This document shows positions 4,595 through 50,035 of a stretch of 64,000 nt of DNA, piece after piece (position 1 is the stretch's first letter; each line of letters opens with the position of its first letter). The DNA comes from Ramlibacter sp. WS9 (GTDB lineage: Bacteria > Pseudomonadota > Gammaproteobacteria > Burkholderiales > Burkholderiaceae_C). The stretch lies in NCBI RefSeq assembly GCF_003797765.1, contig NZ_RKMB01000006.1, positions 186,001 through 250,000 of the forward strand. The letters run 5' to 3'. The translations under genes were made by a program, and so were the position numbers. The notes beneath the pieces are model-generated. The model had not been told where the DNA came from, ran no database searches, and saw only the letters and a program-made list of their open reading frames with translations.

Positions 4595-5175
4595 CGTTTT
4601 TCCTCATCGTCACTGCCAATGACCCACAGACGAGGCTTGGCCCAGACTTGCGCGACAAACCCGTCCTTTTCCTTGAGCTTGCGCGCAACCTGAGCGGTCG
4701 TGAGCACCGTTGGATTCACCTCCCGGCGAAGTTTGTCTTGCGCCGAAGAGAGCGCCTGTACCGCGTCGCCGAAGCCGATTGAGCCCACGATCATCACGTC
4801 AACGTCGCTGTGAGCGTGTTCGGCGCCACTGGCCATGGAGCCATAGACAAACGCGTAGTCGATCTGATCCACCATCGGATTCAGCGCCTCATGCAGTACG
4901 TCGACCAGCCCAACGGTCTTGCGCAACAGGCCCGAGAGTTCATCGAACACCGGGCTTTGGGTGTTGGCGCGGTAGTGGACCTGGCGCCCGACCTCCTGGC
5001 GCAGCAACAGCCCCAACGCAGTCATGGCCCGAAGATCACGATGAAGCGATCCCGGCGAAGCACCCGTCAGCCGCGCCAACTCGCGCACGTGGAGCGCTGC
5101 CTCCGGGTGAAGCAGCAGCTCACTCAACACCGCGGAGCGAGTCTGGCCAAGAAGGAAGTGGGCGATGGATGACAT
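4591..5175 (-). CDS. Winged-helix/MNT nucleotidyltransferase (antitoxin-like)
   Basis: 194 residues. Residues ~1-75 form a winged helix (VRELARLTGASPGSLHRDLRAM, then LLLRQEVGRQVHYRAN). Residues ~100-160 carry the minimal nucleotidyltransferase motif GSMASGAEHAHSDVDVMIVG, i.e. GSx10DxD. In MntA/HepT-type modules such a protein AMPylates and silences a HEPN RNase toxin encoded just downstream, and the DNA-binding domain would give autoregulation. Here the downstream partner looks truncated, so this may be an orphan antitoxin. GC content appears lower than its neighbours. The upstream AT-rich stretch (5176-5220) is a likely promoter. Confidence 0.8.
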   Translation of the reverse strand: MSSIAHFLLGQTRSAVLSELLLHPEAALHVRELARLTGASPGSLHRDLRAMTALGLLLRQEVGRQVHYRANTQSPVFDELSGLLRKTVGLVDVLHEALNPMVDQIDYAFVYGSMASGAEHAHSDVDVMIVGSIGFGDAVQALSSAQDKLRREVNPTVLTTAQVARKLKEKDGFVAQVWAKPRLWVIGSDDEEKR

Positions 5176-5251
5176 GAAGCAAATATTGCTCCAATTGAAG
5201 CAATAAAGAGAACATTCTAGTCCGTCTTGTGCAGCCAGGATGACGGCGCGA

Positions 5252-34585: not shown

Positions 34586-34730
34586 TGCGATCTCTCCTGT
34601 AGTGGAACTGGATAAACGCCGCGCCGCGGCCTTTGGATGCGGCACTAAATCACGCTGCACGCCGCTCATTGTGCTTCCACCCGAAATAGCGAGCTTCGAG
34701 CCGCTAAGCGAACGAGGTTGCCCCAACGCG

Positions 34731-34750
34731 GACTGTCAGACCTGACAGGT
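34731..34750. promoter_or_regulatory. lux-box-like operator at the left edge of the oxidase island
   Basis: GACTGTCAGACCTGACAGGT contains the dyad CTGTCA-N4-TGACAG and fits the CTG-N10-CAG pattern of LuxR-type activator sites. It is followed by GTTGTG and, 22 nt after the dyad, by TGTAGCCT as a possible -10 region. The same arrangement is repeated at the right edge of the island (47622-47641). No LuxR/LuxI pair is in the window. Confidence 0.65.
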
Positions 34751-34822
34751 TGTGGCGCCGCGCGTTGCGGTGTAGCCTTCGCCGCGCCAGCACTGCATGG
34801 CAAAAGAAAAAGGGGAGGGGTC

Positions 34823-35476
34823 ATGACGGATGCGTCGATGCGGGCGGCAGCCTGGGCTGCTCCTGGAAAACTTCGCGTGCTCGGGGGCGTCGCGTTGCAT
34901 GCGCTGCTCGGGTGGAGCGCCGTCTGGCTGCCTTCCACGACATCGGGTGCTTCTCGTGACTGGCTCTGGGGCGCCGCAGGCGCGGTGGTGCTTGGCGGCC
35001 TCCGGCTGGCCGCTGCGCGATGGCCCGCGGCGCGCCCGGCCTCTTCCTCATTGGTGCGTTGCGCTTTGGCCCTGTGCGCAGCCGCTTCCATCGACTTTTC
35101 CATCAGCGCTCCCGATCGCCTCCTCAGCGTGTGCAGCGCGGACACCTCCTGGGACGCGCAGTTCACGTCTCTGATCGAGCACCTTGGGGCGTGTCCCGTC
35201 AGTGGCGCCGCGATGGTGGGGCTGGTCTTGTTCGAGTTCACCGGCGGGCAAGGCCGCGCGAGCTTCTTTCGCGCGGCGCTTGCAGTCGCCGCGATGCTCG
35301 CGGCGATGTCGTTCGCCATGGGGGCCTTGCCATGGCTCGCACGCAGCATGCAGTGGCCCTGGACCGCCGACGCTCTCGTCTTTTCGATGATCTGCAGCAT
35401 GTTGCTGTTGCACCTGCTGCCCCTACAACCACAGAGGAGGAATGAAGCATGCCCCTATCGAGAATTCCCGGCCTGA
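34823..35476 (+). CDS. Uncharacterised polytopic membrane protein, first gene of the oxidase operon
   Basis: 217 residues from ATG 34823 with GGGAGGGG upstream. About five to six hydrophobic helices; the last helices read LAVAAMLAAMSFAMGALPWLA and LVFSMICSMLLLHLLP. Cys residues occur in loops (VCSADTSWD, GACPVSG). No family recognised. Its end overlaps the multicopper oxidase start by 28 bp, so it is tied to it by translation. A role in metal supply or membrane coupling is only a guess from position. Confidence 0.68.
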   Translation: MTDASMRAAAWAAPGKLRVLGGVALHALLGWSAVWLPSTTSGASRDWLWGAAGAVVLGGLRLAAARWPAARPASSSLVRCALALCAAASIDFSISAPDRLLSVCSADTSWDAQFTSLIEHLGACPVSGAAMVGLVLFEFTGGQGRASFFRAALAVAAMLAAMSFAMGALPWLARSMQWPWTADALVFSMICSMLLLHLLPLQPQRRNEACPYREFPA

Positions 35477-37167
35477 CCGGCAGGCGCAGCGCGCGCACCA
35501 TGGCGGCTCTGGCCGTGGCGCTGGGCTGCACGTCTGCCTGGTCGCAAGCGACCAATCCTTGCGCCTACACGAACATCGACGTTGCCAGGTACGGGCGACA
35601 GGAGCTGCGCAATCCACCCAACATTTCGGCGCAGGGCGGCGCGCTGACGACCACGCTGGACGTCCAGTACACCGACCCGAAGACCACCAGCATCGCGGGC
35701 TGCCCGGTCATGCTGCGCACCTACAACGGCCAGCTGGTGGGCCCGACTCTGAGGGTGCGTCCGGGCGAGACGATGAACGTCATGCTGAACAACCGCCTGC
35801 CCAAGGAAACGCCGGACCAGATCCAGCAGCAGTTCGAGCAGGAGAACAAGAGCGCCCACCTGTCCACGCGGCCGGCTTCGTTCAACACGACCAACCTGCA
35901 CACCCACGGGCTGCATGTTTCGCCGGTGGGCAACAGCGACAACGTGCTGCTGGCGATCGCGCCGGGCAGCCGCTTCGGGTACGAGGTGAAGGTGCCGCGC
36001 AGCCACCCGCCGGGCTCGTTCTGGTATCACGCCCATACCCATGGCTCGACCTCCATCCAGGTGGGCAGCGGCATGGGCGGCGCGCTGATCATCGACGACG
36101 ACGAAGCGAAGATCCCCGCTGCGCTGCGCGAGGCCAACCGGAATGAAAAAGTGATGGTTTTCCAGACCATCCTGTACGACACGCAAGGCCGGCTGGACGA
36201 CATCACCGCCCTCTTTCCGTCGCCGTCGAACCCGGCCGATTGCAGCCAGCCGGGCAACCAGAAGACGTGGACCTGTTCGAAGCGGCGCACCACGATCAAC
36301 GGCCAGATCGTGCCGCGCATCCGCATGCGGCCCGGAGAAGTGCAGCGCTGGCGCATGATCGACACGGGGTTCCGCGAAACGATCAACGTGGTGCTCGAAG
36401 GGCATCAGCTGCACGAGATCGCGCTCGATGGCCTGTACCTCGGCCGCGTGGACACGTGGCAACCGGGTCAGCCGGTCGAACTGCAACCGGGCTATCGCAG
36501 CGATGTCCTGGTCAAGGCCAGCCTGAAGCCCGGCGTGTACCGCCTGCTGGATGCCGCTTCCGCCGCCGCCACTTCGGTGCGCGGAGCGGCCGAGCCCGAG
36601 AATGTTCTGGCGGAAGTGGTCGTCGATGGCCCGATGCTCGACATGAAGTTGCCCACGTCGCAGGAGATGGCGGCGCTGGCTCCCTTCCCGGGCGTGGACT
36701 TGACCAAGACCGCCCACGGCGTGCAGCAGGTGGACTTCAAGCTCGGCCAGGACATGCAGGGCAAGAAGAACTACTTCCAGGTCAATGCCCAGGCGTTCAA
36801 CCCGCAGCACGTGAGGCAGGTCAAGCTGAACGCCACCGACATGTGGGCAGTGAGCACGGTGGGCGATCCCCCCGGCGTGCCCAACGGCATCCCGCCCCTG
36901 CCGCACGTCTTCCACATCCACGTGAACCCGTTCCAGACCAGCCGCGCCGGCCCCGACGGCAAGGCGCAGATGGTTTGGAAGGACACGCTGCTGATCCCCT
37001 CCGGGCAGACGCGCAACCTCTACACGCAGTACCTCGACTACATCGGCTCCTTCGTCCTGCATTGCCACATCCTCGATCACGAGGACCTGGGAATGATGGA
37101 AGTGGTGGAAGTCGTCGACGAAAGCAGCGGCGTGGCGCACGGCAGCCCGGCCGGCCATCGGCACTGA
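35449..37167 (+). CDS. Multicopper oxidase (three-cupredoxin, exported)
   Basis: 572 residues; GAGGAGGAA precedes the ATG. A signal peptide ends near SAWSQA. All four copper motifs are intact: HTHGLH (H151, H153, H156), WYHAHTHG (H194, H196, H198), HVFHIH (H486, H489, H491) and HCHILDHEDLGMM (H538-C539-H540, H544, M549). The enzyme couples one-electron oxidation of a substrate to reduction of O2 to water, in the periplasm or outside. The ~30-residue insert QIQQQFEQENKSAHLSTRP before motif I is unusual. It is next to a tyrosinase, suggesting phenol chemistry. Confidence 0.92.
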   Translation: MPLSRIPGLTGRRSARTMAALAVALGCTSAWSQATNPCAYTNIDVARYGRQELRNPPNISAQGGALTTTLDVQYTDPKTTSIAGCPVMLRTYNGQLVGPTLRVRPGETMNVMLNNRLPKETPDQIQQQFEQENKSAHLSTRPASFNTTNLHTHGLHVSPVGNSDNVLLAIAPGSRFGYEVKVPRSHPPGSFWYHAHTHGSTSIQVGSGMGGALIIDDDEAKIPAALREANRNEKVMVFQTILYDTQGRLDDITALFPSPSNPADCSQPGNQKTWTCSKRRTTINGQIVPRIRMRPGEVQRWRMIDTGFRETINVVLEGHQLHEIALDGLYLGRVDTWQPGQPVELQPGYRSDVLVKASLKPGVYRLLDAASAAATSVRGAAEPENVLAEVVVDGPMLDMKLPTSQEMAALAPFPGVDLTKTAHGVQQVDFKLGQDMQGKKNYFQVNAQAFNPQHVRQVKLNATDMWAVSTVGDPPGVPNGIPPLPHVFHIHVNPFQTSRAGPDGKAQMVWKDTLLIPSGQTRNLYTQYLDYIGSFVLHCHILDHEDLGMMEVVEVVDESSGVAHGSPAGHRH

Positions 37168-37202
37168 AACGCCTGTCTTCATTCATCACAAAGGACTTCA
37201 TC

Positions 37203-38729
37203 ATGGCTACCACGACCGCATCCCCCGTTGCGAATCCCACCTGGTATGGGCAAATCCGCGACATGTTCACGACCACCGACCAGGCCCACATGAGCGCGCA
37301 GGGCCTCGACCTCGCGAGCTACACGCAGGTCGTCCAGCATGCGGGCGACATCTACCAGCAGACGGCGCTGGGCAACATGCCGCCGGGCTCTCCCTGGACG
37401 AGCGACTGGGTGGGCACCTTCCTCAACTGGATGACCAACGGCTACCCCAAGGGCACGCCACCGGCCGTCCCGACGTTCCTTGCCCGAACCAGCCTGCGCG
37501 CGGCCGCGCCCAGCGCGACGAGGCTCCGCAAGGAGATCACCGCGCTGTCGAAAGGTGAGCTCGACCTGCTCAAGAAGGCGTTCTCCGCGATCGTCGCGAA
37601 GGATCCCAGCGACCCGAACAGCTACTTCGCGCAGGCCGGAATCCACTGGTACCCGGCCCCGGAAACCTACTGCATGCATCACGTGCCGGGCTACAACCCG
37701 TGGCACCGGGCTTACGTGCTCAGCTTCGAGAATGCGCTGCGCTCGGTCCCGGGCTGCGAAAGCGTCACGCTGCCCTATTGGGATATCACCACGCCTTTCC
37801 CCGACGTGCTCAAGAGCGCCCCTTTCGACCGTTACGTTCTGCAAGAGGCGGCGAGCCCGGACTATCCCAAAGGCTATGCCACGAATCGGTTTCCCTACGA
37901 CCAGATCGCCGCGAACCTGCTGAAATACGGCGTCACCGCCGACGTCGACCGGGCCCTGTCGAAGACCGACTGGGAAGACTTCCACGGGTTCTGGTCCGGC
38001 GCCGCCTACAACACGATCATTGCCGCGCACGACAAAGGCCACAACTCCATCGGCCCGACGATGCAAGACCAGGGCGTGGCCGCCTTCGACCCTGTGTTCT
38101 GGTTCTTCCATTGCAACTGGGACCGTCTGTACTGGGAGTGGCAAAAGAAGATGCTGGCCACCGACCTGCACGGCCTGCTCACGACCATCAACGAAGAAAC
38201 CGACCCGATCAGCTACCAGGAGTTCACCAACCCCGCGGTCGGCATCCTGAACCCGTTCGGCGCGGCTCCGCTGAAGCTGGATGCCGTCGGCACCATCAAC
38301 TCCCCGCTCAGCCTCGACGTCGACTACCAGGATCCGCCCATGGCCAGGAGCACGAAGTTCAACGTCAAGACGCAGCGCTCGCTCGTCGCGTCGCGGCGGT
38401 TCTCGGTCGACGCGGGCGTCGTCAATGTGCGCGTGAGCGGCGTGAATCGCCTGAAGATTCCCGGCAGCTTCTCCGTTCACCTGCAAAAGGACGGGCAGAC
38501 CATCGCATCGAGCGCGCTGTTCCAGCCGGTCGAGGCGCAGAAGTGCGCGAACTGCGTGGGCAACGCCATCGTTCACTTCGACTTCGAGCTACCCGCGGCG
38601 GCAGTTCTCGGCGGAACCCTGAGCGTCTGGGTCGAGCCCGTCAACAAGAGCTTCGTCGGCGATCGATTCCCGCAGAAGCTGATGGGCAACCCGACGATTG
38701 AAGTGCATCTCTTGATGCGGACGGAGTAG
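37203..38729 (+). CDS. Tyrosinase-family copper oxidase
   Basis: 508 residues from ATG 37203 (AAAGGA upstream). CuA site: IHWYPAPETYCMHHVPGYNPWHRAY with H148, H159/H160 and H168, plus C157, which could make the thioether seen in some type-3 proteins. CuB site: H276 and H280 in HDKGHNSIG, and H303 in DPVFWFFHCNWDR. The C-terminal ~150 residues form a beta-rich domain, perhaps a shielding domain as in plant polyphenol oxidases. No signal peptide is seen. It would hydroxylate or oxidise phenols to quinones. Confidence 0.9.
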   Translation: MATTTASPVANPTWYGQIRDMFTTTDQAHMSAQGLDLASYTQVVQHAGDIYQQTALGNMPPGSPWTSDWVGTFLNWMTNGYPKGTPPAVPTFLARTSLRAAAPSATRLRKEITALSKGELDLLKKAFSAIVAKDPSDPNSYFAQAGIHWYPAPETYCMHHVPGYNPWHRAYVLSFENALRSVPGCESVTLPYWDITTPFPDVLKSAPFDRYVLQEAASPDYPKGYATNRFPYDQIAANLLKYGVTADVDRALSKTDWEDFHGFWSGAAYNTIIAAHDKGHNSIGPTMQDQGVAAFDPVFWFFHCNWDRLYWEWQKKMLATDLHGLLTTINEETDPISYQEFTNPAVGILNPFGAAPLKLDAVGTINSPLSLDVDYQDPPMARSTKFNVKTQRSLVASRRFSVDAGVVNVRVSGVNRLKIPGSFSVHLQKDGQTIASSALFQPVEAQKCANCVGNAIVHFDFELPAAAVLGGTLSVWVEPVNKSFVGDRFPQKLMGNPTIEVHLLMRTE

Positions 38730-38804
38730 TGGCGCGCGGATTTGCCCGACACGGCCCACAGAGGCTCAGGTAACCAACTCAATTAACACGAGAGGGAATT
38801 CGAT

Positions 38805-40199
38805 ATGACTATGACCGCGGCACCCAATGCCATCATGCAGACCACCACTGTTCAGGCCAACCAGTCATGGCAGAGCGCCGGGGTGGCCATTCCGTCCGGC
38901 GTCAGCGTGACCATCGCCTACCAGCAGGGAGGCCTGTGGACGGCCGATCCGCACACGAATGAGGGGCTGCCCTACGATGCAAATGGTTGCCCGGGCGTGG
39001 TCGTGCCGGTGAATCAGACCAGCTATCCAATCACCGGCGTGCAGATGGGTGCGTTGGTGGGTAGAGTAGCCGGCGGTGCACCGTTCCTGATCGGCGACAG
39101 CACTTACACGGTGCTGTCAGCCACCGGCGGCGCGCTGGAACTGTGTATCAATGACGACCTCACCGGGCAGTATGGCGCGGGCCTTGCCGACAACAGCGGC
39201 AGCCTGACTGTCTTCATCTACAGCACCAACACGCCGCCAGACACCGCAAACCCGCTGGTGCAAGAGCCATCGCAGGTTTCGCCTGGCGTGCCGCTGGCGC
39301 AGCTGGGTCTTTTGCAATCGCTCATCGGCACCTGGACGAACCAGAATTTGCCGGGCACCACCAGTGGCGGCCCCGAGTCGCCGTTTTCCTACAACGTCAT
39401 GCCGCTGCCGCAGGTGGACCCTTCCTCGCCCACGGGCTACATCCTGAAGAATTTCTCGTATTACGAGGAACTCACTTTCACCGCGATCCACGGCACCGCG
39501 CCCAATCGTGGGGGCGTTGGCCAACAAGTTTCTTTCACCCTGTTCTATGCGCAGCGCGTGTATTTTGCCGAGGGGCCCAACAAGGACGCACTCGTCCACG
39601 CCGAGAACGGCTCGCTGCTTCTGCTGCTGGACCAAACCCAGCCGCTCGGCCCCTATGGCAACGGCGACCTGCCGGGGCTTGGTAACCTCGTCGTGCAGAA
39701 CAGCGTGCCGCCCACGCAGCAGTTCAATCTGGTCAAGCAAGTCTCAGTGCCGCACGGCAATTCGATCCTTGCATTGGGCAACTATGCCGGCACCAGCACC
39801 CAGGGCCAGCCGGTTATTCCATCGGCCTCGCCGCTGCCAACCGGCGTGAACACGCAGCAGTACTCGGCGAACGACCCGGTGACCAACCCGCAACCGGCGC
39901 TGACGGCCAATCCGAACCAGGTACTTGTCAATGCGCTCGCTCTGCGGCCCTGCACCAACTTTCTGAACTTGTCGCTCAGCTCCGCCAACGGCAAGGGCGC
40001 GGTCACCAACATCGGCTTCGAGCAGCAGCACGCAAACGTCAGCCGGTACGACTTCAACTACTGGCTGGAGTCGTTCGACGGCACCGACAACTTCACTCAA
40101 CTGCAATACAGCCAGACCATCACCTTGCAGATCCCGATCGGCGGCCAGACCGTCGTCTTTCCGCATGTCACAGCCAACACGCTGACGAAAGTTGCATAA
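38805..40199 (+). CDS. LecA-like lectin domain fused to a beta-barrel domain
   Basis: 464 residues; GAGAGGG precedes the ATG. Residues ~13-145 follow the PA-IL (LecA) pattern: VQANQSWQSAGVAIPSGVSVTIAYQQGGLWT, GALVGRVAGGAPFLIG, LELCINDDLTGQYGAGLADNSGSLTVFI, where INDD-x-DNSG would hold the Ca2+/galactose site. Residues ~165-464 look like a lipocalin- or nitrobindin-like barrel (LQSLIGTWTNQNLPG, EELTFTAIHGTAPNRG, LVHAENGSLLLLLD, QVSVPHGNSILALG). No signal peptide. GC is lower than upstream genes. Role unknown. Confidence 0.62.
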   Translation: MTMTAAPNAIMQTTTVQANQSWQSAGVAIPSGVSVTIAYQQGGLWTADPHTNEGLPYDANGCPGVVVPVNQTSYPITGVQMGALVGRVAGGAPFLIGDSTYTVLSATGGALELCINDDLTGQYGAGLADNSGSLTVFIYSTNTPPDTANPLVQEPSQVSPGVPLAQLGLLQSLIGTWTNQNLPGTTSGGPESPFSYNVMPLPQVDPSSPTGYILKNFSYYEELTFTAIHGTAPNRGGVGQQVSFTLFYAQRVYFAEGPNKDALVHAENGSLLLLLDQTQPLGPYGNGDLPGLGNLVVQNSVPPTQQFNLVKQVSVPHGNSILALGNYAGTSTQGQPVIPSASPLPTGVNTQQYSANDPVTNPQPALTANPNQVLVNALALRPCTNFLNLSLSSANGKGAVTNIGFEQQHANVSRYDFNYWLESFDGTDNFTQLQYSQTITLQIPIGGQTVVFPHVTANTLTKVA

Positions 40200-40200
40200 C

Positions 40201-41430
40201 ATGACGCTGGCAAAGACCCAGGAAACAGGCTCCGGCCTGTTTCACCACATCTACCACGGCGAGACGATTGAGCGCAGACATCTGCAGAAAGCCGCGCAAT
40301 TGGCCCTGCAGGTCGAATTCACGACCATCCCGGTCTACCTGAGCGGGATGTACTCGATCATCGATCCCAACACTGCCGCGTACCAGGCACTGCGCGGCGT
40401 GGTGATGGAAGAGATGTTCCACCTCAGCCAGGCCGCGAATACGCTGGTGGGGATTGGCGGCTTGCCCGATCTGACGGGCGATGCGGTTCCCCGCTTTCCA
40501 TGCTACTTGCCGCACGCCAACGAGAGCACGACCCCGTTTGTCGGTCTCTTCCGTGCCTCCCAGGACGTCTTCAACAACGTGTATGCCGCGATCGAGCAAC
40601 CTGCGCCGCCACATGCGCCAGCGCAGGGCGACAACTACGACACCATCGCCCAGTTGTATGACGCGTTGGAGCATGGCATGGAGCGGTTCGTGAAGGAACA
40701 CGGCGAGGCGGCGCTGTTCGAACAAGCCAGCGGTGGCAGGCAGCGCCTGGACATCTACATCGGAAAATTTGGCGGAAAGCCGGTCGAAGTGATCAACCTG
40801 AAAACCGCCCTGCACGGCATCAGGGAAATCACGCAACAAGGCGAAGGCAGCGTGCCGCCAGGCCAGTCGCTGGTGGCGAGTGAACCCTGGAGCACCTACA
40901 ACCAGTATGGCCCCCGCTCCGATGGCACCTACGGGCCCATCATCGGCAGTCCGACCGAGATGTCCCATTTCGCCAAGTTCCTGGGTGTGGCCCTGGCAAC
41001 GGACCCTTTTCCGCAGACCTACCCGATCCTTTCCAATCCCAAGCGTTCCGATTTCTGCTACCCATTGACCGCAGGCTTGGCCGAGGCGTTCGACATGGCG
41101 TACAGCATCATGCTCGACCAATTGCAGGCCAGCTTCCGCAAGCCCGAGTCGGGTGCCAAGGACAGCTTTTTCGGTGTCGTGCTGCCGCTGATGCACACCG
41201 TCATGCCGGTGTTGGCGCGCTTGCTGATGACCACGCCAATCAATGAGAACGGCGACAACTCGGTGGGCCCCAACGCCGCACCGACCTGGATCTACCAAGC
41301 GGGTGCCAGCCTCAGTGGCTTGCACGCAAGCATTGCCGCATTGCTGAAACTCCCCGGCTTGAGTTCGGACCAGAAAAAGGACGAACGCGCAACGCTGCAG
41401 AGCGTGCTTGACGCCCTCGCGCAGTACTGA
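40201..41430 (+). CDS. Ferritin-like protein of the VioB/RebD iminophenylpyruvate dimer synthase type
   Basis: 409 residues from ATG 40201, one base after the preceding stop codon. The N-terminal ferritin-like domain has the diiron carboxylates in LALQVEFTTIPVYLSGMYSI and VVMEEMFHLSQAANTLVGIGG, the pattern of the PF12902 family. In VioB and RebD this fold joins two amino-acid-derived imines. Here it is free-standing, without the other violacein or rebeccamycin genes. It probably acts on an oxidised amino acid, possibly made by the neighbouring LodA enzyme. That link is inference. Confidence 0.75.
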   Translation: MTLAKTQETGSGLFHHIYHGETIERRHLQKAAQLALQVEFTTIPVYLSGMYSIIDPNTAAYQALRGVVMEEMFHLSQAANTLVGIGGLPDLTGDAVPRFPCYLPHANESTTPFVGLFRASQDVFNNVYAAIEQPAPPHAPAQGDNYDTIAQLYDALEHGMERFVKEHGEAALFEQASGGRQRLDIYIGKFGGKPVEVINLKTALHGIREITQQGEGSVPPGQSLVASEPWSTYNQYGPRSDGTYGPIIGSPTEMSHFAKFLGVALATDPFPQTYPILSNPKRSDFCYPLTAGLAEAFDMAYSIMLDQLQASFRKPESGAKDSFFGVVLPLMHTVMPVLARLLMTTPINENGDNSVGPNAAPTWIYQAGASLSGLHASIAALLKLPGLSSDQKKDERATLQSVLDALAQY

Positions 41431-41457
41431 CTCAGTTCCGCCATCTTTGGAGTACCC

Positions 41458-43296
41458 ATGATCGAATACAAAATTTTCCCGGCCATTGGCGTCGCACGTG
41501 TCGGCAACGCACCAGAGAAATACTATGTCGGCCCCGAGAAATACTGTGGCTTGCCGACCAACCCCGACGGCAGCCCGTTCACGCAAGCCGATTTCCGCGA
41601 CAGCCAGAAGCGCCTGTGCCGGCAGGCCTCCCTGTTTCACGTCTTCAAGGTTGAAGACGGCATGCAGACGGAAGTCACGTTGGCAACGCCCGGCGTCAAG
41701 TCCATCACCTGGCACGCGCATCTGGCCAACAAGAAGGCCAGCTGGTATGACTTCAAATGCCTGCTCGGTGAAGACGGCTATGCCCCCAACCATCCGCTGC
41801 GCAACCCCACGGCCGCGAACCGGCATGAACTGGTCATCGACGCCGGTCCGCGCCAGATCAGCGGCGCCAACCAGCAGGGGGTGGCGTTCGACCGCTCCAG
41901 CGTCCCGCCAGGCTACCGCGGCGCGCACTTTCCCCCGGGCGTGTTGAACCCGACCGAGGAATCCATCGACACCCTGGGCGAACTGCGCACCGATGCCCAA
42001 GGGCGCCTGCTGGTGTTGGGCGGCCTGGGTATCTCTGGCACCGCGTATGCGGAGCCGAATATCCCCGCCGGCCAATATGCCAACAACGACGGCTGGTGGG
42101 ACGACACATCGGACGGTCCGGTCAAGGCGCGGATCGAGCTGGACGACGGCACGGTGATCGACGTTGCGCCCTCGTGGGTGTTGGTGGGTCCGCCCAGTTT
42201 TGCGCCGGAACTGCCGAACCTTGTGACCTTGTACGACACCATTCACGACACGATGGTGCGCAACGGCCACCATCCCGAAATCTATGCCGATGGATTCTGG
42301 AAGAAAGGTCCGGATGGCTACCGGCCCAATTTCGACACGGAGATCCGGCCCCTGTTGGAACGGCCGCTGCTTTATGCGTGGGTGGCGGCCATCCCGCCCA
42401 AGCCGCACAAGTTTGATTTCGAGAAGCTCGGCGCGGTCGAAGCGATTGACGGACGGCTGCAGGGCGCGGCGAGCAGCAGGGGCTTGCGCCAGTACGTGTT
42501 CGATTTCGTGCGCCCACCCGGTGGCGAGAACGTCATCGTCAAGAGCTACGAAACCCAGACCAAGACAGGCTCTGGCCAGTTGGGCGGGGTGGGCAGCACC
42601 ATGATGCCTTTTTTGGCGGGCGACAACGCGCTGCTGCCCGACGCGCCCATGAGCCAGTACCTGCGCCTGACCGATACGCAGTTCTTCTGCCTGCAGCAAT
42701 GGGCTGACGGCTGGTTCGAAGCCGCTGCGTCAAGGCCGCAGCAACCCGGTTCGGCCCTGACGCGCGGGGTGTTGGAAAACTGTGTTGGCGGTCCCTTTTC
42801 GCCAGGCATAGAAATGAGCTGGATCTCAAGAAATCCCGCGATCTACAGCGAGCCGTACCGCATCCGGGCGCACTTTGCGGAGGTGGGCCCGCTCAGCCTT
42901 GATTTCAACCCGCAACGCGGCATGGAGCCGGGCGATATCTCTCGCTACATGGCGTTGCCGTGGCAAGCGGACTTCAACGAATGCTCGTCGCAACCGACCG
43001 ATGGGCGTACCTTGTGGTGGTGGCCCGCGCAGCGCCCCGAATACGTGTACCTCGAACCGCCTCAGGCAGTCCTGGCGGCGACGGCTGTACCCGCGCCGAG
43101 TCGCAAGTCGGGGATGCAGGTGCCGTGGATCGGCACCGACTTCAACCAGAACGCCAGCTCGTACATCCAGTTCGGGGCCGACATCGACATGGTCACGCAT
43201 TGGGCGCAACTCGGCTTTGTCATGGAAAAAGAGGTGGACGGCGAAGACCGCTTCGTCGAGGTCGAGCGCACATTGCCGAGGCCGTTCGTGGGCTGA
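41458..43296 (+). CDS. LodA/GoxA-family cysteine tryptophylquinone oxidase, copy 1
   Basis: 612 residues. The N-terminus IFPAIGVARVGNAPEKYYVGPE is the family signature. The cofactor region LPWQADFNEC has D505 and C509, and VTHWAQLGFV has W582. These match the Asp-x3-Cys and the Trp that form CTQ in LodA (D512, C516, W581), so the enzyme should be competent. It would deaminate an amino acid (Lys in LodA, Gly in GoxA), releasing H2O2 and NH3. The substrate cannot be told. Its flavoprotein maturase follows two bases later. Confidence 0.9.
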   Translation: MIEYKIFPAIGVARVGNAPEKYYVGPEKYCGLPTNPDGSPFTQADFRDSQKRLCRQASLFHVFKVEDGMQTEVTLATPGVKSITWHAHLANKKASWYDFKCLLGEDGYAPNHPLRNPTAANRHELVIDAGPRQISGANQQGVAFDRSSVPPGYRGAHFPPGVLNPTEESIDTLGELRTDAQGRLLVLGGLGISGTAYAEPNIPAGQYANNDGWWDDTSDGPVKARIELDDGTVIDVAPSWVLVGPPSFAPELPNLVTLYDTIHDTMVRNGHHPEIYADGFWKKGPDGYRPNFDTEIRPLLERPLLYAWVAAIPPKPHKFDFEKLGAVEAIDGRLQGAASSRGLRQYVFDFVRPPGGENVIVKSYETQTKTGSGQLGGVGSTMMPFLAGDNALLPDAPMSQYLRLTDTQFFCLQQWADGWFEAAASRPQQPGSALTRGVLENCVGGPFSPGIEMSWISRNPAIYSEPYRIRAHFAEVGPLSLDFNPQRGMEPGDISRYMALPWQADFNECSSQPTDGRTLWWWPAQRPEYVYLEPPQAVLAATAVPAPSRKSGMQVPWIGTDFNQNASSYIQFGADIDMVTHWAQLGFVMEKEVDGEDRFVEVERTLPRPFVG

Positions 43297-43298
43297 AG

Positions 43299-44438
43299 GT
43301 GGCGCATGACGCAGCAGAGGTGGCCGATGTCTTGATCGTCGGAGCGGGGCCCGCCGGAAGCGCGACAGCCCTGGGCCTGTTGGCAGCGGGCGTTGAGCAG
43401 GTTCTGCTGGTCGACCGAGGCAGCGCGCGCCCCTTTGCGATCGGTGAATCCGCCACCCCCGATGTTGCACAAATGCTCGGCAGGCTGGGCCTGGAAACCG
43501 ACCTGGGGCGGCTCGGGCACCGGCCGTACCACGGCAACCTGTCGCTCTGGGGCGATGCAAAACCGCAGGCCGACTACTTTCTGCAACGCGGTCACGGGCA
43601 TGGATGGCACCTGCAGCGCGCCGAGTTCGATGCCTGGCTGTTGCAGCAGGCGGTGGATCGCGGTGCGCGCCTGATGTGCCCCACCAGCGTCAAATGGTGC
43701 ACGCGGTCGGAGGGTGTCTGGCAGGCAAACCTGGCAAGCACTGACGGCAAGCAGAAGCGGGTGCAGGCGCGCATGCTGGTAGACGCCGGCGGAAGGCGCG
43801 CGCCCTTGGCCACGCGCCTGGGCGCGCAACGGCGCCGGCTTGACGGTTTGGTCGGGCTGGCGACGCGGGCCACGGCCACCCCGGCACTGGCCGGCATGTC
43901 GTTGGTGGAGCCTTTTGAGCACGGCTGGTGGTATGCCGCCTGCTTGCCCGATGGGCAGGCGGTGGTGACGTTGATGAGCGACATCGATGTCGTGCGTAGC
44001 CAGTGCCTGCAGGATTGGCACAACTATCTGTCGGCATGGCGCACCACGGCCAAAGTCGCGGAACTGGCCCCGCCCTGCCCGCCGCAAGAGCAGGACGGCC
44101 AGACGCTTCAGCCGAACATCCAGACTTTCGCCGCCCACAGCAGTTACCTGGACCGCGCTGCGGGTCAGGGCTGGATTGCGGTCGGTGATGCCTTGCTGGC
44201 CTTCGACCCTCTGACGTCCTCGGGCATCTCCGGTGCGCTGAGTGACGCTGAGGCTGCGGTTCCCGCGATCGTGGGGCAGTTGGCAGGCGACAGCATCGCC
44301 AGCCGGCATTACGCGGAGCGCGCCAACCGCACGTTCATTCGCTATATCGAAGGCTTGCACAGGCAGTACGGCGCTGAGCAACGGTGGCCGAATAGTGTGT
44401 TTTGGTCGCGCCGCCACGCAGGCCCGGTTGGGGTGTGA
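43299..44438 (+). CDS. LodB-like FAD flavoprotein, maturase for LodA copy 1
   Basis: About 379 residues from GTG 43299, two bases after LodA; GTG 43320 is an alternative start and no ATG lies before the FAD motif. FAD-binding GAGPAGSATALGLLAAG, then GWHLQRAEFDAWLLQQA, and GWIAVGDALLAFDPLTSSGISGAL. This is the tryptophan-halogenase/LodB-like group. LodB is needed to install the CTQ cofactor in LodA. It converges with the second LodB gene across a 30-bp gap. Confidence 0.86.
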   Translation: MAHDAAEVADVLIVGAGPAGSATALGLLAAGVEQVLLVDRGSARPFAIGESATPDVAQMLGRLGLETDLGRLGHRPYHGNLSLWGDAKPQADYFLQRGHGHGWHLQRAEFDAWLLQQAVDRGARLMCPTSVKWCTRSEGVWQANLASTDGKQKRVQARMLVDAGGRRAPLATRLGAQRRRLDGLVGLATRATATPALAGMSLVEPFEHGWWYAACLPDGQAVVTLMSDIDVVRSQCLQDWHNYLSAWRTTAKVAELAPPCPPQEQDGQTLQPNIQTFAAHSSYLDRAAGQGWIAVGDALLAFDPLTSSGISGALSDAEAAVPAIVGQLAGDSIASRHYAERANRTFIRYIEGLHRQYGAEQRWPNSVFWSRRHAGPVGV

Positions 44439-44468
44439 CAAAGCCGGAACGGCTGCCCGGGCGCCGAC

Positions 44469-45614
44469 CTATGAGTACGCCATTGCCGGCGCGCCGGCAG
44501 CGGCCTTCGCCAACTCCAAGCGACGCCCCCAAAACGGCTCCCGCGGCCAGCGCTGCTCCATGGCGTAGTACGCGGCGAGGTTGCGCGCATAAGCTGCGCG
44601 CACACCGTCCACATGATGCGTCCACGCAGGCAGCGCCTGCGCGTTCCCGTCCAGATGCGCGATGGCGTGCTGCGCTCCCTGCAGGCCGGTGCACAGGCTG
44701 TTGAACAGGCCCTGCGAAGCCAGCGGGTCGAAGGCCAATGCGGCGTCGCCCACGGCCATCCAGTCCACGCCCGCGGCGGCCGCGCAGTACTGGCTGTATG
44801 CGGGCGCGATGCCCACGGGTTGGGCCCGGGCGTCCAGGCCCTCGCAGCGCGCACGGATCAGCAGTGTCTGCTCGCGCGCATACGCGAGCAATCCAGCCTG
44901 CGTTTTGCACTCGCGCACGGCCGGCTGGTCCGCGTCGGTGTGGAACGCAAGCACGGTGTCACCATGAGGCACCTGAACGCTGTACCACCAGCCCTGCGGG
45001 GCCGCCTCGATCAGCGTGGCGCCGGCCCATGCCGCCGTGTCTCGGCCGGGCGGCAACCAGGCATGCAGGCACACCAGCTTGTCCGTGCGGTGGACGGCCG
45101 CGCCTGCCAGGCGCGCTGCGCGTGCGCTGCGGCCGCTGGCGTCCACCAGCAGGCGGCAGCGAAGCCGCAGGGGTATGCCGTCGGCGGTGAGCAATTCGCA
45201 CAGCCAGGGATGGCGAGCGCCCGGCTCGTGGTGCGCCGCGCGCAACATCGCGCCGGCCAGCCATTCGGCGCCGCGCTCGGTCGCGGCATCGCGCAGCAGG
45301 CCGTCGAATGCCGTGCGGCCGAGGATCCAGCCGTGGCCTTGCGGATCGAGCAAGGCGTCGCGTTGAACCGTCTCGCTTTGGCCCCAAGCCGAGGCATGCG
45401 ACCACGCCGGCCGGTGGCCTTGTGCCAGGAAGCGGTCCCACAGGCCCAGATCGCGCAGCGGCACGGACGCGGCGCCCGGCAGCGATTCTCCGATCTGCCG
45501 GCCGGAAGGCGTTCGGCCCGCAAGGGCCACGGTGCAGTGGCCCGCCAGCTGCGCCGCGATCACCGCGCCCGCCGGCCCGGCGCCGGCCACGAGCACGTCG
45601 AGCTGCCGCTCCAT
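44469..45614 (-). CDS. LodB-like FAD flavoprotein, copy 2
   Basis: 381 residues from ATG 45612-45614; longer frames upstream run into the LodA gene and are not family-like. FAD site VAGAGPAGAVIAAQLAG, GRQIGESLPGAA, GWILGRTAFDGLLRDAA, and DWMAVGDAALAFDPLASQGLFNSL. Same family as copy 1 but clearly divergent and higher in GC. It follows its LodA partner by 16 bp and is the last gene of the leftward operon. Confidence 0.86.
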   Translation of the reverse strand: MERQLDVLVAGAGPAGAVIAAQLAGHCTVALAGRTPSGRQIGESLPGAASVPLRDLGLWDRFLAQGHRPAWSHASAWGQSETVQRDALLDPQGHGWILGRTAFDGLLRDAATERGAEWLAGAMLRAAHHEPGARHPWLCELLTADGIPLRLRCRLLVDASGRSARAARLAGAAVHRTDKLVCLHAWLPPGRDTAAWAGATLIEAAPQGWWYSVQVPHGDTVLAFHTDADQPAVRECKTQAGLLAYAREQTLLIRARCEGLDARAQPVGIAPAYSQYCAAAAGVDWMAVGDAALAFDPLASQGLFNSLCTGLQGAQHAIAHLDGNAQALPAWTHHVDGVRAAYARNLAAYYAMEQRWPREPFWGRRLELAKAAAGAPAMAYS

Positions 45615-45630
45615 GCTCACAGCGGCGCGC

Positions 45631-47565
45631 TCATTCCGCCCGGCGAAGCCGCGCGTGCAGCAACAACATCTCTTCGTTGCGCGCGTCGAAAGGCTCGGGC
45701 ATGTCGACCGGATCGACCGGTGCGGCCTCGCGGCGCAGAAGCGTCTCGACCGCTGCCTGCACGGGCGCAATGCGGTTTTCCACCTGCATCTGCGGTGGAA
45801 AGTCGGCATCGCCGGGAATCCCGGACCGCAACTCCAGCACGCCCATCTGGTCGAAGTGGTCGATCATGTAGTTGATCTGGCTGGTGTAGCCGCCCGGCCC
45901 CAGCGTGCGGAACCACGAGGCGCGGCGGCTGAAAGCGGCGCGCCTTTCGCTGCGGGGCTTCTCGGTGTCCATCACGATGCTGTAGTCCTCTTCGGTCAGC
46001 ACCTGGTTGGGCACGCGCGCCGGCCAGAAGCTGGGCACGTAGGGGTCGTAGCGCGGGCCGTAACCGGCGTAGTAGCCGCTGCGGCAACTGGCCGTGTCGG
46101 TCTGCCAGGGCACGGCCATCCAGCGCGTGAGGTCGCCAGCCGACTGCGCATACAGCGGGCCTCCGACCGCGAGCGCGACCTGCGGCGTGAGCTGCGTGCC
46201 GTAGTTGGGCAGCGCAGGCGCGTCCGGCGCGGCCTCGCGCAGGCGGAACGGCGCGCGGTACATGCTGGCGTGGCGCATCGGCCAGGTGATCTCGCAGCCG
46301 GGGTGGAAGGCGTCGGCCAGGCAGTGGTCCATGGCGGCGCGGTCCAGCGTGGCCGGCTGCGCCTGCAGCGGCACCTGGTCGATGTGCGAGGGCCCCCGCG
46401 CGGCCGGGTCCCAGTCCGCGATGAACCGGCCTTCGGCCCACTGCGAGAGCATCAGCAACTGCGTATCGGTGACGGCCGCGTTCTGGCGCGGCGTGTTGGC
46501 CGGGGGCACGGCCATGGCGTCGCCGTAGTTCCAGGGCCAGGGCAGCGGAGATTTGCCATCGCGTTCGAACTGGCGAAAGGCGTTGGCCACTTGCTGGCGC
46601 AGCTCGCGCCAGGTGTCCGACGGATCGGCCAGCTTCGCGACCAGCGCCGCGTCTTGCGCGTCGAAGGGGCCGCCCCAGCCGAACTGCGCGGCGAAGCCCT
46701 TGTTCGCCCACTGCAGGCCGGTCTGGTTTTGCAGGATCGGCAGGATGTCGCGCGAGAAAGAGACAGCTGGCGGGACCTGCATCATGCCGGCCTGGATGAA
46801 CACGTCCTCCATCAGTGCGGCCATGGTGCGCACCGAGCGCAGCTGCGGCCCGTAGTTGGGCGGGGCGACCAGCACCCAGGCACTGTCGACGGGGATGGCG
46901 GCGCCGTCCAGCGTGACGCTCGCGCGCACGGGCCCGTCGGCCGTGTCGTCGTGCCAGCCGTCATTGTTGGCGAAAGTGGTTGCCGGCTTGCCATCGGCCG
47001 AGGCGGACTTGCCGTGGCCGCCCAGCACGAGCAGGCGCCCGGCCTCGTCGGTGCGCAGCTCGCCCAGGTAGACCGGTGTGCCAACGAACTTTCCGCTGTC
47101 GAACTGGTAGGCGGCGCCGCGTTGCCCGGCGCCGCGGATCGTGCGGGCGCCGGGCGTGATGGCCAGGCTCGCACGGTCCTTGACGTTCGCGTTGCGCAGC
47201 AACGAGGGATCGGCCATCTTCGGGTTGAGCGCTTCCGGGATGTCCAGCGCGATCTGGAACTGGTACCAGGCGGCCTTCTTGTTGGCCAGCTCCACCGTCC
47301 ATTCGATCTCGGCCTCGCGCGCGGTGATCTCTCGCACCACTTCGCCGGCGGCGTTGTAGCCGTAGATGCGAAAGCGCGCGGCTTCGCGCTTGAGCGCGCC
47401 CTGCGGGTCGCGCAGTTCGCCGGGTGCCATCGGCGGCGGGTCCATGACCTCGGGGCCGATGTAGTAGCCCTCGGGGCTGTTGCCGACGCGCGCCACGCCG
47501 ATGCCGGGGTGGATGGCCGCGCGCACGATGGTGCTGTCGGCCGGTGGGGTCGAAGTGATGCTCAT
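45631..47565 (-). CDS. LodA/GoxA-family protein, copy 2 (atypical cofactor site)
   Basis: 644 residues from ATG 47563-47565, with a very good ribosome site (GGAGGAAACC). Signature AAIHPGIGVARVGNSPEGYYIGPE. The cofactor Cys region VPWQTDTASC keeps D490 and C494. At the place where copy 1 has Trp (VTHWAQLGF), this protein reads MIDHFDQMGV, so the aligned residue is F571; W551 in ASWFRTLG is the nearest other candidate. CTQ formation is therefore uncertain. About 32 residues longer than copy 1 overall. Leftward operon with its own LodB. Confidence 0.87.
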   Translation of the reverse strand: MSITSTPPADSTIVRAAIHPGIGVARVGNSPEGYYIGPEVMDPPPMAPGELRDPQGALKREAARFRIYGYNAAGEVVREITAREAEIEWTVELANKKAAWYQFQIALDIPEALNPKMADPSLLRNANVKDRASLAITPGARTIRGAGQRGAAYQFDSGKFVGTPVYLGELRTDEAGRLLVLGGHGKSASADGKPATTFANNDGWHDDTADGPVRASVTLDGAAIPVDSAWVLVAPPNYGPQLRSVRTMAALMEDVFIQAGMMQVPPAVSFSRDILPILQNQTGLQWANKGFAAQFGWGGPFDAQDAALVAKLADPSDTWRELRQQVANAFRQFERDGKSPLPWPWNYGDAMAVPPANTPRQNAAVTDTQLLMLSQWAEGRFIADWDPAARGPSHIDQVPLQAQPATLDRAAMDHCLADAFHPGCEITWPMRHASMYRAPFRLREAAPDAPALPNYGTQLTPQVALAVGGPLYAQSAGDLTRWMAVPWQTDTASCRSGYYAGYGPRYDPYVPSFWPARVPNQVLTEEDYSIVMDTEKPRSERRAAFSRRASWFRTLGPGGYTSQINYMIDHFDQMGVLELRSGIPGDADFPPQMQVENRIAPVQAAVETLLRREAAPVDPVDMPEPFDARNEEMLLLHARLRRAE

Positions 47566-47621
47566 GGTTTCCTCCGCTGCGTTTATCGCCCGGAGTCTGC
47601 ACCGAACGCCCCCCTCGCACA

Positions 47622-47641
47622 ACCTGTCAAAGATGACAGGC
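47622..47641. promoter_or_regulatory. lux-box-like operator at the right edge of the oxidase island
   Basis: ACCTGTCAAAGATGACAGGC holds the perfect dyad CCTGTCA-N4-TGACAGG and fits CTG-N10-CAG. Read leftward it is followed by GTTGTG and, after 22 nt from the 16-bp dyad, by TGCAGACT, the same plan as the left-edge site. It lies 58 bp before the LodA copy 2 ATG and just past the uvrD stop. Confidence 0.68.
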
Positions 47642-47647
47642 GAGGCG

Positions 47648-50035
47648 CTAAGGCACCGGCGTCAATTTGGCCACCGACAGGGCCAGCCACTTCACCCCGT
47701 GGCGGGGGAAGTTGACCTGGGCCCGCGCATCCGCGCCCTGCCCTTCGATCGACACCACCGAGCCCTCGCCGAACTTGGTGTGGAACACCTTCATGCCGGC
47801 GCGCAGCCCGTGCGAAGGCTCCGCTTTTTGCACCGGCACTGGCGGGCTGGAGAAAGTTTCCTTGGCGAAGCCGCCGCCCGAGTAGTTGCTGCGCGACGTC
47901 GGGTAGCCGGAGCCATAGCCGAAAGCCGAGCCGCCGAAGTTCTGGTTCTTGGGCGTGAGGTACTTGAGCGCGCTCTCTGGCAATTCCTCGAAGAAACGGC
48001 TCTTGACGTTGTAGCGGGTCTGGCCATGCAGGAGGCGCGTCTGCGAATAGCTGAGATACAGGCGCTTGCGTGCACGCGTGATCGCGACGTACATCAGGCG
48101 GCGCTCTTCCTCCAGCCCCTCGCGTTCGGTCATGGAGCGTTCGCTCGGGAACAGGCCTTCTTCCAGGCCGCTGATGAAGACGCAATCGAACTCCAGCCCC
48201 TTGGCCGAGTGCACCGTCATCAACTGGACGGCGTCCTGCCCCACCTGTGCCTGGTTGTCGCCGGACTCCAGCGCGGCATGCGTGAGGAACGCGGCGAGCG
48301 GTGACAAGGTTTCGCCGGTTTCTGCGTCGGGTGGCACGTAGTCGGGCGCCGGCTCGTTCACTTCAGGCTGGCTCGGATCCAGCCCCTGGCTCGCGGGCGA
48401 CTGGCGGGGCGTGCCGGGGCCGAGTTCGTCCACGGGTAGCGCGACGGCGTCACGCCCGAAACCTTCCTGCGTGACGAAGCTCTCTGCCGCGTTGACCAAT
48501 TCCTCCAGGTTCTCGATGCGGTCGGCGCCTTCGCGCTCGGTCTTGTAGTGGTCGACGAGGCCCGACTCCTGCAGCACCAGCTCGATGATCTCGCGCAGTG
48601 TCAGGTCGATGGTGCGCTCGCGCAGCGAGTCGATCTTGCTCACAAAAGCTGCGAGATTGGCGCCTGCCTTGCCGGTCGCAGACTTTACCGCGTCATGAAG
48701 CGAGCAGCCGCCCGCGCGGGCGATGTCCTGCAACTGCTCGATGCTTCGCGCGCCAATGCCGCGCGGCGGGAAGTTGACGATCCGGATGAAGCTTGTGTCG
48801 TCGTTCGGGTTCTCCAGCACGCGCAGGTAGGCCAGCGCGTGCTTGATTTCCGCGCGCTCGAAGAAGCGCAGCCCGCCGTAGACGCGGTAGGGCATGGCGG
48901 CATTGAACAGCGCCGTTTCGATCACCCGGCTCTGCGCATTGCTGCGGTAGAGCACGGCGATTTCCTTGCGCTCGAACCCACCGTCGGGGCCGTCGTTGCG
49001 GATGAGGTGCCGCATTTCCTCGACCATCCACTGCGCCTCGGCCAGGTCTGTCGGCGCCTCGTACACGCGCACCGGCTCGCCGGGCCCCTGGTCGGTGCGC
49101 AGGTTTTTGCCCAGGCGCGTCTTGTTGTGGCTGATCAGCTCATTGGCCGAATCCAGGATGTTGCTGTGGCTGCGGTAGTTCTGCTCCAGCTTGATCTGGT
49201 GGCGCACCTGGAACTCGCGCACGAAGTCCGCCATGTTGCCCACCCGCGCGCCGCGGAATGCGTAGATGCTCTGGTCGTCGTCGCCCACCGCCAGCACGCT
49301 GCTGCCTTCCCCGCTGAGCATCTTGATCCAGGCGTATTGCAGCTTGTTGGTGTCCTGGAACTCGTCGATCAGGATGTGCCGGAAGCGTCGCTGGTAGTGC
49401 TCGCGGATCGGGTCGTTGTCGCGCAGCAGTTCGTAGCTGCGCAGCATCAGTTCGCCGAAGTCGACCACGCCTTCGCGCTGGCATTGCTCTTCATAGAGCT
49501 GGTAGATCTCGACCTTCTTGCGGTCTTCTTCGCCGCGCACTTCGACCACATTGGGTCGCAGGCCGTCTTCCTTGCAGCCGGCGATGAACCACTGCGTTTC
49601 CTTTGCGGGAAAGCGCTCATCGTCCACGTTGTGCTGCTTCATCAACCGCTTGATCGCCGACAGCTGGTCCTGCGTGTCGAGGATCTGGAACGTCGACGGC
49701 AGGTTGGCCAGCTTGTAGTGCGCACGCAGGAAGCGGTTGCACAGGCCGTGGAAGGTGCCGATCCACATTCCGCGCACGTTGACGGGCAGCATCGCCTGCA
49801 GCCGCGTCATCATTTCCTTCGCCGCCTTGTTGGTGAAGGTCACGGCCATGACGCCGCCGGGCGAAATCTGGCCGGTGGACAGCAGCCAGGCGATGCGCGT
49901 GGTCAGCACGCGGGTCTTGCCCGACCCGGCGCCCGCCAAAATCAGCGCATGCTCATTGGGCAGAGTGACGGCGGCCGCCTGCTCCGGGTTGAGATTCTGT
50001 AAGAGCGGGGACGCCGCGTCGACTTCTGGGAACAT
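47648..50035 (-). CDS. uvrD: DNA helicase II, UvrD/PcrA
   Basis: 795 residues, full length. Motifs: LNPEQAAAV, Walker A AGAGSGKTRVLTTRI, FTNKAAKEM, IDEFQDTN, VGDDDQSIYAFRGA, LEQNYRS, VHSAKGLEFDCVFISGLEEGLFP, RRLMYVAITRARKRLYL. The C-terminal UvrD/PcrA tail with the Tudor-like GMKVFHTKFGEGSVVSIEGQG motif that binds RNA polymerase in PcrA is present. It acts in nucleotide excision and mismatch repair. It is a different branch from the helicase at 5.3-7.3 kb. Confidence 0.95.
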   Translation of the reverse strand: MFPEVDAASPLLQNLNPEQAAAVTLPNEHALILAGAGSGKTRVLTTRIAWLLSTGQISPGGVMAVTFTNKAAKEMMTRLQAMLPVNVRGMWIGTFHGLCNRFLRAHYKLANLPSTFQILDTQDQLSAIKRLMKQHNVDDERFPAKETQWFIAGCKEDGLRPNVVEVRGEEDRKKVEIYQLYEEQCQREGVVDFGELMLRSYELLRDNDPIREHYQRRFRHILIDEFQDTNKLQYAWIKMLSGEGSSVLAVGDDDQSIYAFRGARVGNMADFVREFQVRHQIKLEQNYRSHSNILDSANELISHNKTRLGKNLRTDQGPGEPVRVYEAPTDLAEAQWMVEEMRHLIRNDGPDGGFERKEIAVLYRSNAQSRVIETALFNAAMPYRVYGGLRFFERAEIKHALAYLRVLENPNDDTSFIRIVNFPPRGIGARSIEQLQDIARAGGCSLHDAVKSATGKAGANLAAFVSKIDSLRERTIDLTLREIIELVLQESGLVDHYKTEREGADRIENLEELVNAAESFVTQEGFGRDAVALPVDELGPGTPRQSPASQGLDPSQPEVNEPAPDYVPPDAETGETLSPLAAFLTHAALESGDNQAQVGQDAVQLMTVHSAKGLEFDCVFISGLEEGLFPSERSMTEREGLEEERRLMYVAITRARKRLYLSYSQTRLLHGQTRYNVKSRFFEELPESALKYLTPKNQNFGGSAFGYGSGYPTSRSNYSGGGFAKETFSSPPVPVQKAEPSHGLRAGMKVFHTKFGEGSVVSIEGQGADARAQVNFPRHGVKWLALSVAKLTPVP

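Follow-up and report, generated by a model that had tools for sequence, protein, structure and literature searches.

Two convergent operons of oxidase genes in a 64,000-nucleotide (nt) stretch of DNA from a Ramlibacter relative (contig NZ_RKMB01000006.1, positions 186,001 to 250,000; the whole stretch is referred to below as the window) are each preceded by an exact copy of the inverted repeat CTGTCA-N4-TGACAG. Both dyads are probably operators of one regulon, whose likely regulator is a 222–amino acid (aa) protein with a predicted LuxR fold that would co-activate both operons at high cell density. This reading rests on the box itself, its recurrence, its placement, its intergenic bias, its co-occurrence with the regulator gene, and the conserved dyad in the first codons of that gene. 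From these data, we infer binding of the box by the regulator, activation, an input from cell density, and an extracellular oxidative output in the form of H2O2, quinones, or pigment.

Paired boxes and their recurrence

In the window, exact matches to the dyad pattern are found at positions 34733 to 34748 (plus strand, CTGTCAGACCTGACAG), leading the right operon, and at 47624 to 47639 (minus strand, CTGTCATCTTTGACAG), leading the left operon, and nowhere else. The preliminary description of this DNA had located both dyads but had drawn each two bases too wide on either side. Both are intergenic, lying 74 nt from the ATG at 34823 (plus strand) and 58 nt from the ATG at 47565 (minus strand); a uvrD-like helicase gene, in which UvrD domains were matched, has its 3′ end 8 nt from the left-operon dyad. 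The common leader plan reported earlier was re-found exactly: GTTGTG directly follows each dyad (rightward from 34749 and leftward from 47623), and a second element, TGTAGCCT in the right and TGCAGACT in the left leader, starts exactly 22 nt past the dyad.

The shared leader reads best as a weak −35 element TTGTGS, a 17-nt spacer, and a −10 element YAGMCT. The putative core promoters are TTGTGG-N17-TAGCCT at 34750 to 34778 (plus strand) and TTGTGC-N17-CAGACT at 47594 to 47622 (minus strand). We call these elements weak because a strict sigma-70 scan of positions 34600 to 47800 revealed no promoter; weak core elements would fit activator-dependent promoters, which are often weak. The dyad center would lie ~44.5 base pairs (bp) before the predicted start, a position suited to an activator standing beside RNA polymerase. 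CTG-N10-CAG is the pattern of LuxR-type sites, and this geometry is present upstream of the predicted −35 element in both leaders.

The genome containing the window (6.98 Mb in 180 contigs; Ramlibacter is placed in Comamonadaceae) carries 9 exact dyads versus 0.32 expected under a first-order Markov model, so the earlier claim that the shared leaders go beyond chance holds. When up to one mismatch was allowed, 17 places were found, compared to 5 with a reversed control pattern. Among the nine exact sites, the full combination with GTTGTG and TGYAGMCT is confined to the window pair, as a genome-wide scan proposed in the preliminary description revealed; one site outside the pair has GTTGCG, and the remaining sites diverge further.

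The box CTGTCARNNYTGACAG was present in 43 of the 48 genomes of the genus (124 copies; 0 of 48 for the reversed control) and in 1 of 32 genomes from other families of the order (G054, four copies). The surroundings were read for 71 exact CTGTCA-N4-TGACAG sites, 9 from the own genome and 62 from relatives, and 69 of these match CTGTCARNNYTGACAG. Bases outside the search pattern are also conserved: the C before and the G after the dyad in 91% of cases and the purine/pyrimidine inside it in 98%. Across sites, −10 elements were placed as best-scoring hexamers without a background model, and the resulting peak at +32 comes mostly from two orthologous site classes. Among the findings that would refute its reading, the preliminary description had named many copies inside coding regions or before unrelated genes. 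Many copies inside coding regions were not seen, with 69 of 71 examined sites being intergenic versus 13.8% of random positions. Copies before other genes do exist; however, these genes are largely one coherent set related to signaling and exported products. Some of them, in the neighborhoods of rsmD, minE, and glnD, are not obviously of this kind.

Four site classes recur in relatives: between secA and cqsA, between an M16 peptidase gene and rsmD, beside minE, and between glnD and a PhnD gene (secA, minE, glnD, and rsmD were named by eye). Among the targets met only once are a polyketide synthase (L122) and an ABC exporter accompanied by a HlyD-type protein (L090). Overall, the boxed genes comprise a cqsA-type synthase, hybrid-kinase modules, an exporter, polyketide, R-body, and ferritin-like genes, and a candidate small RNA, and the recurring targets form a predicted regulon. 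In one relative, two acyltransferase-like genes lie in tandem; their starts are nearly identical, and each has a box copy of its own (L080, at 3013 and 5077). Among the open-access literature matches listed, no title or abstract start described the box or the regulator in Ramlibacter.

The candidate small RNA lies behind the box between the M16 peptidase gene and rsmD (L072:4034–4136, plus strand; L086, L091, L099, L104, and others; own copy at L030:6684–6788). It has an AACAAT-like −10 element, a CTGTCAC close to the 5′ end that does not vary, and a putative terminator in which 9 of 10 pairs show compensatory changes. A T-run follows in 15 of 16 candidates, the own copy being without one. A scan of ten loci against Rfam gave no match, and RNAalifold recovered the terminator stem only, not a 5′ CTGTCAC hairpin drawn by eye.

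The signaling locus and the candidate regulator

One recurrent box belongs to a locus ordered secA, box, signal module, LqsR/JqsR-like response regulator gene, and regulator gene. The response regulator (own gene at L031:379–1353) is present in 57 of 59 genus genomes and matches PDB 6sy9, “Response regulator,” with an E value of 1e-18; we take this structure to be LqsR. Its closest named relatives are Ramlibacter records (85 to 86% identity), and the same locus is found in records from Caenimonas, Polaromonas, and Hydrogenophaga. In relatives, the gene behind the secA box encodes an alpha-hydroxyketone autoinducer synthase (L089: NF005526, 571 bits, above the cutoff of 428; E value of 2e-102 to Vibrio cholerae CqsA structures such as PDB 3hqt). 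This gene converges on the response regulator gene and a kinase gene, the latter encoding a 441-aa histidine kinase (HK) in the L073 locus. At an E value of 1e-70, a cqsA-type synthase is present in 39 of 59 genus genomes.

In the own genome, where it takes the place of cqsA, and in L077 (G016), L083 (G009), L109 (G024), and L110 (G038), a different module stands behind the box. Its hybrid kinase has an HATPase and two receiver domains in all five cases and Hpt in four. The own locus encodes proteins with HK–response regulator (RR)–RR–Hpt and RR-HK architectures, and L077 has a similar RR-HK protein, as judged by eye. The module acyltransferase is weakly FeeM-like (17.7 bits for the L077 copy versus a cutoff of 27), and an iron-redox Haem_oxygenas_2 enzyme is present in three of the five modules (own, L083, and L110). 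Near an A8 run, the FeeM-like gene shifts to the −1 frame (L031 of contig C125, minus strand, ~5060 to 5700, and the four other loci). The sequence CTCGAAAAAAAAGAGA was read in L031, L077, L083, and L109, four of the five species, and the reading frames of L110 are arranged in the same way; the conservation of the change makes programmed frameshifting or polymerase slippage more likely than decay.

G009, G016, and G024 lack cqsA, while G038 carries both module and cqsA, so that the two may also function in parallel. A tentative idea, which we hold to be possible but doubtful, is that in the cqsA-less species (own, G009, G016, and G024) the module makes and senses a new class of quorum signal, feeding the same regulator and box, which would also drive the small RNA and oxidative weapons that include the island in the window. 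In four further cqsA-less species (L079, L095, L103, and L119), the box is kept in the space that separates secA from the convergent response-regulator gene, where no coding target was called; perhaps it is a remnant promoter there.

Beside the response regulator gene lies the gene for the 222-aa LuxR-type protein (G000:C125:102624–103289, equal to L042:12625–13290, minus strand), the most likely candidate for the regulator and predicted to bind the box. It has a C-terminal GerE helix-turn-helix (HTH; residues 161 to 215, E value of 1.5e-16). Over its whole length the predicted fold resembles QscR, RhlR, SdiA, and TraR, with an N-terminal LuxR/GAF-like sensor fold; there was no match to PF03472, the acyl-homoserine lactone (AHL)–binding domain, and profile alignment to four AHL LuxRs of the genus covered residues 96 to 222 only. 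An identity as EpsA was rejected (TIGR03020, 27.9 bits versus a cutoff of 170, in the HTH part only). The regulator gene itself contains a dyad within its first codons that is conserved at the DNA level.

The co-occurrence of regulator and box was assessed in a family sample of 200 genomes from 141 genera, with the regulator in 27 genomes and the box in 43. The box was found in 21 of the 27 genomes with the regulator versus 22 of the 173 without it (Fisher’s exact test, P of ~1e-11). Outside the genus, 18 of 24 regulator genomes have the box (P = 5e-10), and when the regulator is at least 60% identical, the box is present in 21 of 22, the single miss being a 70% complete genome. Within the genus, among the 39 genomes at least 90% complete, the box is present in 35 of 37 with the regulator and in neither of the two without (P = 0.008); when all 48 genomes are taken, 41 of the 44 that carry the regulator and 2 of the other 4 have the box (P = 0.05).

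Taken together, these data make the following scheme the most likely one. The signal synthase and kinases would set the state of the signaling locus. A dimer of the regulator would then bind CCCTGTCARNNYTGACAGGG just upstream of the −35 elements, which are weak, and bring in RNA polymerase; its synthase module would be activated as well, in a positive feedback. Both operons of the window would be switched on together at high density, and the oxidase set would act outside cells or at the surface of dense populations, where it would make H2O2, quinones, or a pigment.

Alternative readers of the box

Several observations weigh against the regulator assignment and the scheme built on it. The window promoters match sigma-70 poorly. 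At an E value of 1e-70, no CqsA-type synthase was found in the own genome. The P values given above overstate independence since the sampled genomes are related. Three genus genomes (G006, G028, and G030) and six of the family sample (G109, G154, G159, G202, G252, and G264) have the regulator and no exact box, and in two genomes that are 75 to 76% complete (G010 and G019) boxes are present and no regulator was found. The 22 of 173 regulator-less genomes with a box exceed the reversed control (3 of 200); therefore, the box is probably shared with other LuxR-type proteins, among which may be AHL LuxRs.

Since the own genome yields 31 GerE-domain matches, another GerE protein could bind the box. 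The regulon would then be the same, but its reader would be, for example, a NarL-type response regulator ending a hybrid-kinase phosphorelay, and the 222-aa protein would be a neighbor or a co-target. Hybrid-kinase phosphorelays usually feed a DNA-binding response regulator, and the dyad-led module does hold HK-RR-RR-Hpt and RR-HK proteins. We nevertheless consider such a reader unlikely: in the stretch C125:90000–116000 around the locus, the 222-aa gene alone gave a GerE match; it is 64 to 94% identical in 48 relatives, has a dyad at its very first codons, and follows the occurrence of the box in the family sample.

The preliminary description had proposed a switch by cell density or by a LuxR solo. 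The LuxR-site geometry and the presence of a LuxR-fold candidate in a cell-density locus agree with the proposal, but an AHL-binding LuxR does not appear to be involved: PF03472 gave 0 matches in the own genome, with 22 candidates scored and the E. coli control detected. The LuxI-type synthase model PF00765 also gave 0 matches in the own genome, the control genome being likewise silent. Classical AHL quorum sensing, with an AHL-binding LuxR or LuxR solo reading the dyad, is very improbable and, for the own genome, already largely refuted. Besides the CTG-N10-CAG geometry, it can draw on the near-identical box in two of the five AHL clusters of the genus that were viewed: CTATCA-N4-TGATAG is exact in L214 (at 3019) and L215 (at 7017), one-mismatch copies lie in L218 (at 8379, 9652, and 9671), and L216 and L217 have none within two mismatches. 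However, no more than 11 of 59 genus genomes carry AHL LuxR genes, among them the complete G005 and G007 without any exact box, and these genes show no positive association with the box. LqsR-like response regulator paralogues adjoin several AHL LuxR/LuxI-like clusters of the genus.

CTGT-N8-ACAG is the LexA operator pattern, and the letter geometry of the dyad fits it; a uvrD-like gene also ends 8 nt from the second dyad, with its 3′ end rather than its promoter. Damage-induced operons under a LexA/SOS operator are nonetheless hardly credible, since the interior of the dyad is CA/TG and not AT-rich, the window sites lie upstream of the −35 element and not over it, and the box tracks a LuxR-type gene. 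No recA- or lexA-like neighbor was seen by eye at the nine exact own sites, where not every neighbor was scanned. CRP/FNR and LysR geometries were weighed by their motifs only and dropped.

Putative target genes and comparison with known systems

The two window operons are convergent, ending at 44438 and 44469. The right operon (plus strand) starts with a 217-aa protein that fits no family of Pfam or NCBIfam (34823 to 35476), followed by a multicopper oxidase (35449 to 37167; three Cu-oxidase Pfam families, with CueO as the best NCBIfam model at 98.9 bits, below the cutoff of 525) and a tyrosinase-family protein (37263 to 38729; PF00264, E value of 3e-35). Next comes a 464-aa protein (38805 to 40199) that the preliminary description had called a lectin; the NF040572 match (240.5 bits, above the cutoff of 150) rules this label out and identifies a heme-binding FMP-type, peroxidase-related protein. 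A ferritin-like protein (40201 to 41430; PF12902, E value of 4e-33) gave no VioB match in the NCBIfam-type model scan; the PF12902 family presumably covers part of VioB. The operon ends with a LodA-like cysteine tryptophylquinone (CTQ) oxidase (41458 to 43296; LodA_N and LodA_C domains, 366 bits to the LodA model versus a cutoff of 600, and PDB 3weu at an E value of 1e-81) and a LodB-like flavoprotein maturase (43299 to 44438; NF038171, 247 bits versus a cutoff of 400). The left operon (minus strand) encodes a GoxA/LodA-like CTQ oxidase (45631 to 47565; LodA_N and LodA_C, 415 bits to the GoxA model versus a cutoff of 750, and a PDB match) and a GoxB/LodB-like flavoprotein maturase (44469 to 45614; NF038174, 216 bits versus a cutoff of 400). 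These protein families make H2O2/quinone chemistry plausible.

Genes around the sites, in the own genome and in relatives, were called with a custom gene caller that assumed codon-position GC, so gene borders are approximate. Seven exact sites lie elsewhere in the own genome. On C11, the box lies between RebB-type R-body genes and a hexapeptide-transferase-like gene; the RebB-family genes (L029:7–933) lie behind the dyad close to the contig end, one matching PF11747 at 92.5 bits and the second at 23.8 versus a cutoff of 24. On C158, it belongs to an operon of a TonB-receptor-like gene, a VTT protein, and two ferritin-like genes. This second box-led PF12902 operon (L041:4027–10433) contains two pairs of an uncharacterized ~640-aa protein and a PF12902 protein, and one member of each pair weakly resembles VioB (TIGR04492, 17 bits versus a cutoff of 1250). 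The other sites are associated with PhnD-like and cytochrome c′ genes (C95), an uncharacterized gene and a fatty-acid desaturase (C96), an uncharacterized 446-aa protein (C116), the intergenic stretch that separates an M16 peptidase gene from a rsmD-type gene (C92), and the gap after a secA-like gene, named by eye, ahead of a heme-oxygenase-like gene (C125).

The available text of the hydroxyketone papers (PMC3376566 and PMC5080296) leaves open the route from an LqsR/JqsR-type locus to DNA. In the present data, the box, the candidate LuxR-fold regulator, and the list of targets are consistent with each other in several Comamonadaceae genera, so that a single protein and a single oligonucleotide would suffice to test the question. 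The probable cell-density regulon would bring LodA/GoxA-type quinoproteins, tyrosinase, and multicopper oxidases together with genes for R-bodies, polyketides, and exporters.

Compared to the LodA/LodB and GoxA/GoxB quinoprotein oxidases, as far as the available part of PMC4417212 describes them, both window operons share the domain pair and the flavoprotein maturase, but the window oxidases and maturases all score under the curated equivalog cutoffs. AHL LuxR/LuxI systems and LuxR solos resemble the present case in box geometry and the whole-length predicted fold of the regulator; in contrast, the candidate lacks PF03472, and the own genome has no LuxI-type match, with a silent control. With Legionella lqs and Vibrio cqs (available part of PMC3376566), the likeness lies in the CqsA-type synthase of relatives and the own LqsR-like response regulator, while the output proposed here is a LuxR-fold protein without an AHL domain model.

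In Janthinobacterium/Duganella, Haack et al. (2016; PMC5080296, available text) described a JAI-1 motif, TTGA-N6/7-TCAA, before jqsA, vioA, and chiA, as well as 45 quorum sensing–regulated genes; deletion of 49 bp including the motif lowered vioA promoter activity by 75 to 90%. The available text of PMC5080296 and PMC3566124 names no DNA-binding regulator for this motif. That system and ours have in common an alpha-hydroxyketone synthase (here in relatives), a kinase, an LqsR-type response regulator, and a palindrome ahead of the synthase gene, which in theirs also precedes secondary-metabolite, secretion, and pigment (vioA) genes. The pigment genes have a possible parallel in our two box-led operons with PF12902 proteins, one of which holds the weak VioB matches. 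They differ in the box, TTGA-N6/7-TCAA there and CTGTCARNNYTGACAG here, and in that a DNA-binding regulator is proposed here and the own genome is without the synthase. The Janthinobacterium JAI-1 regulon is the closest known system, with a similar logic and a different box, the own genome representing a variant without the synthase.

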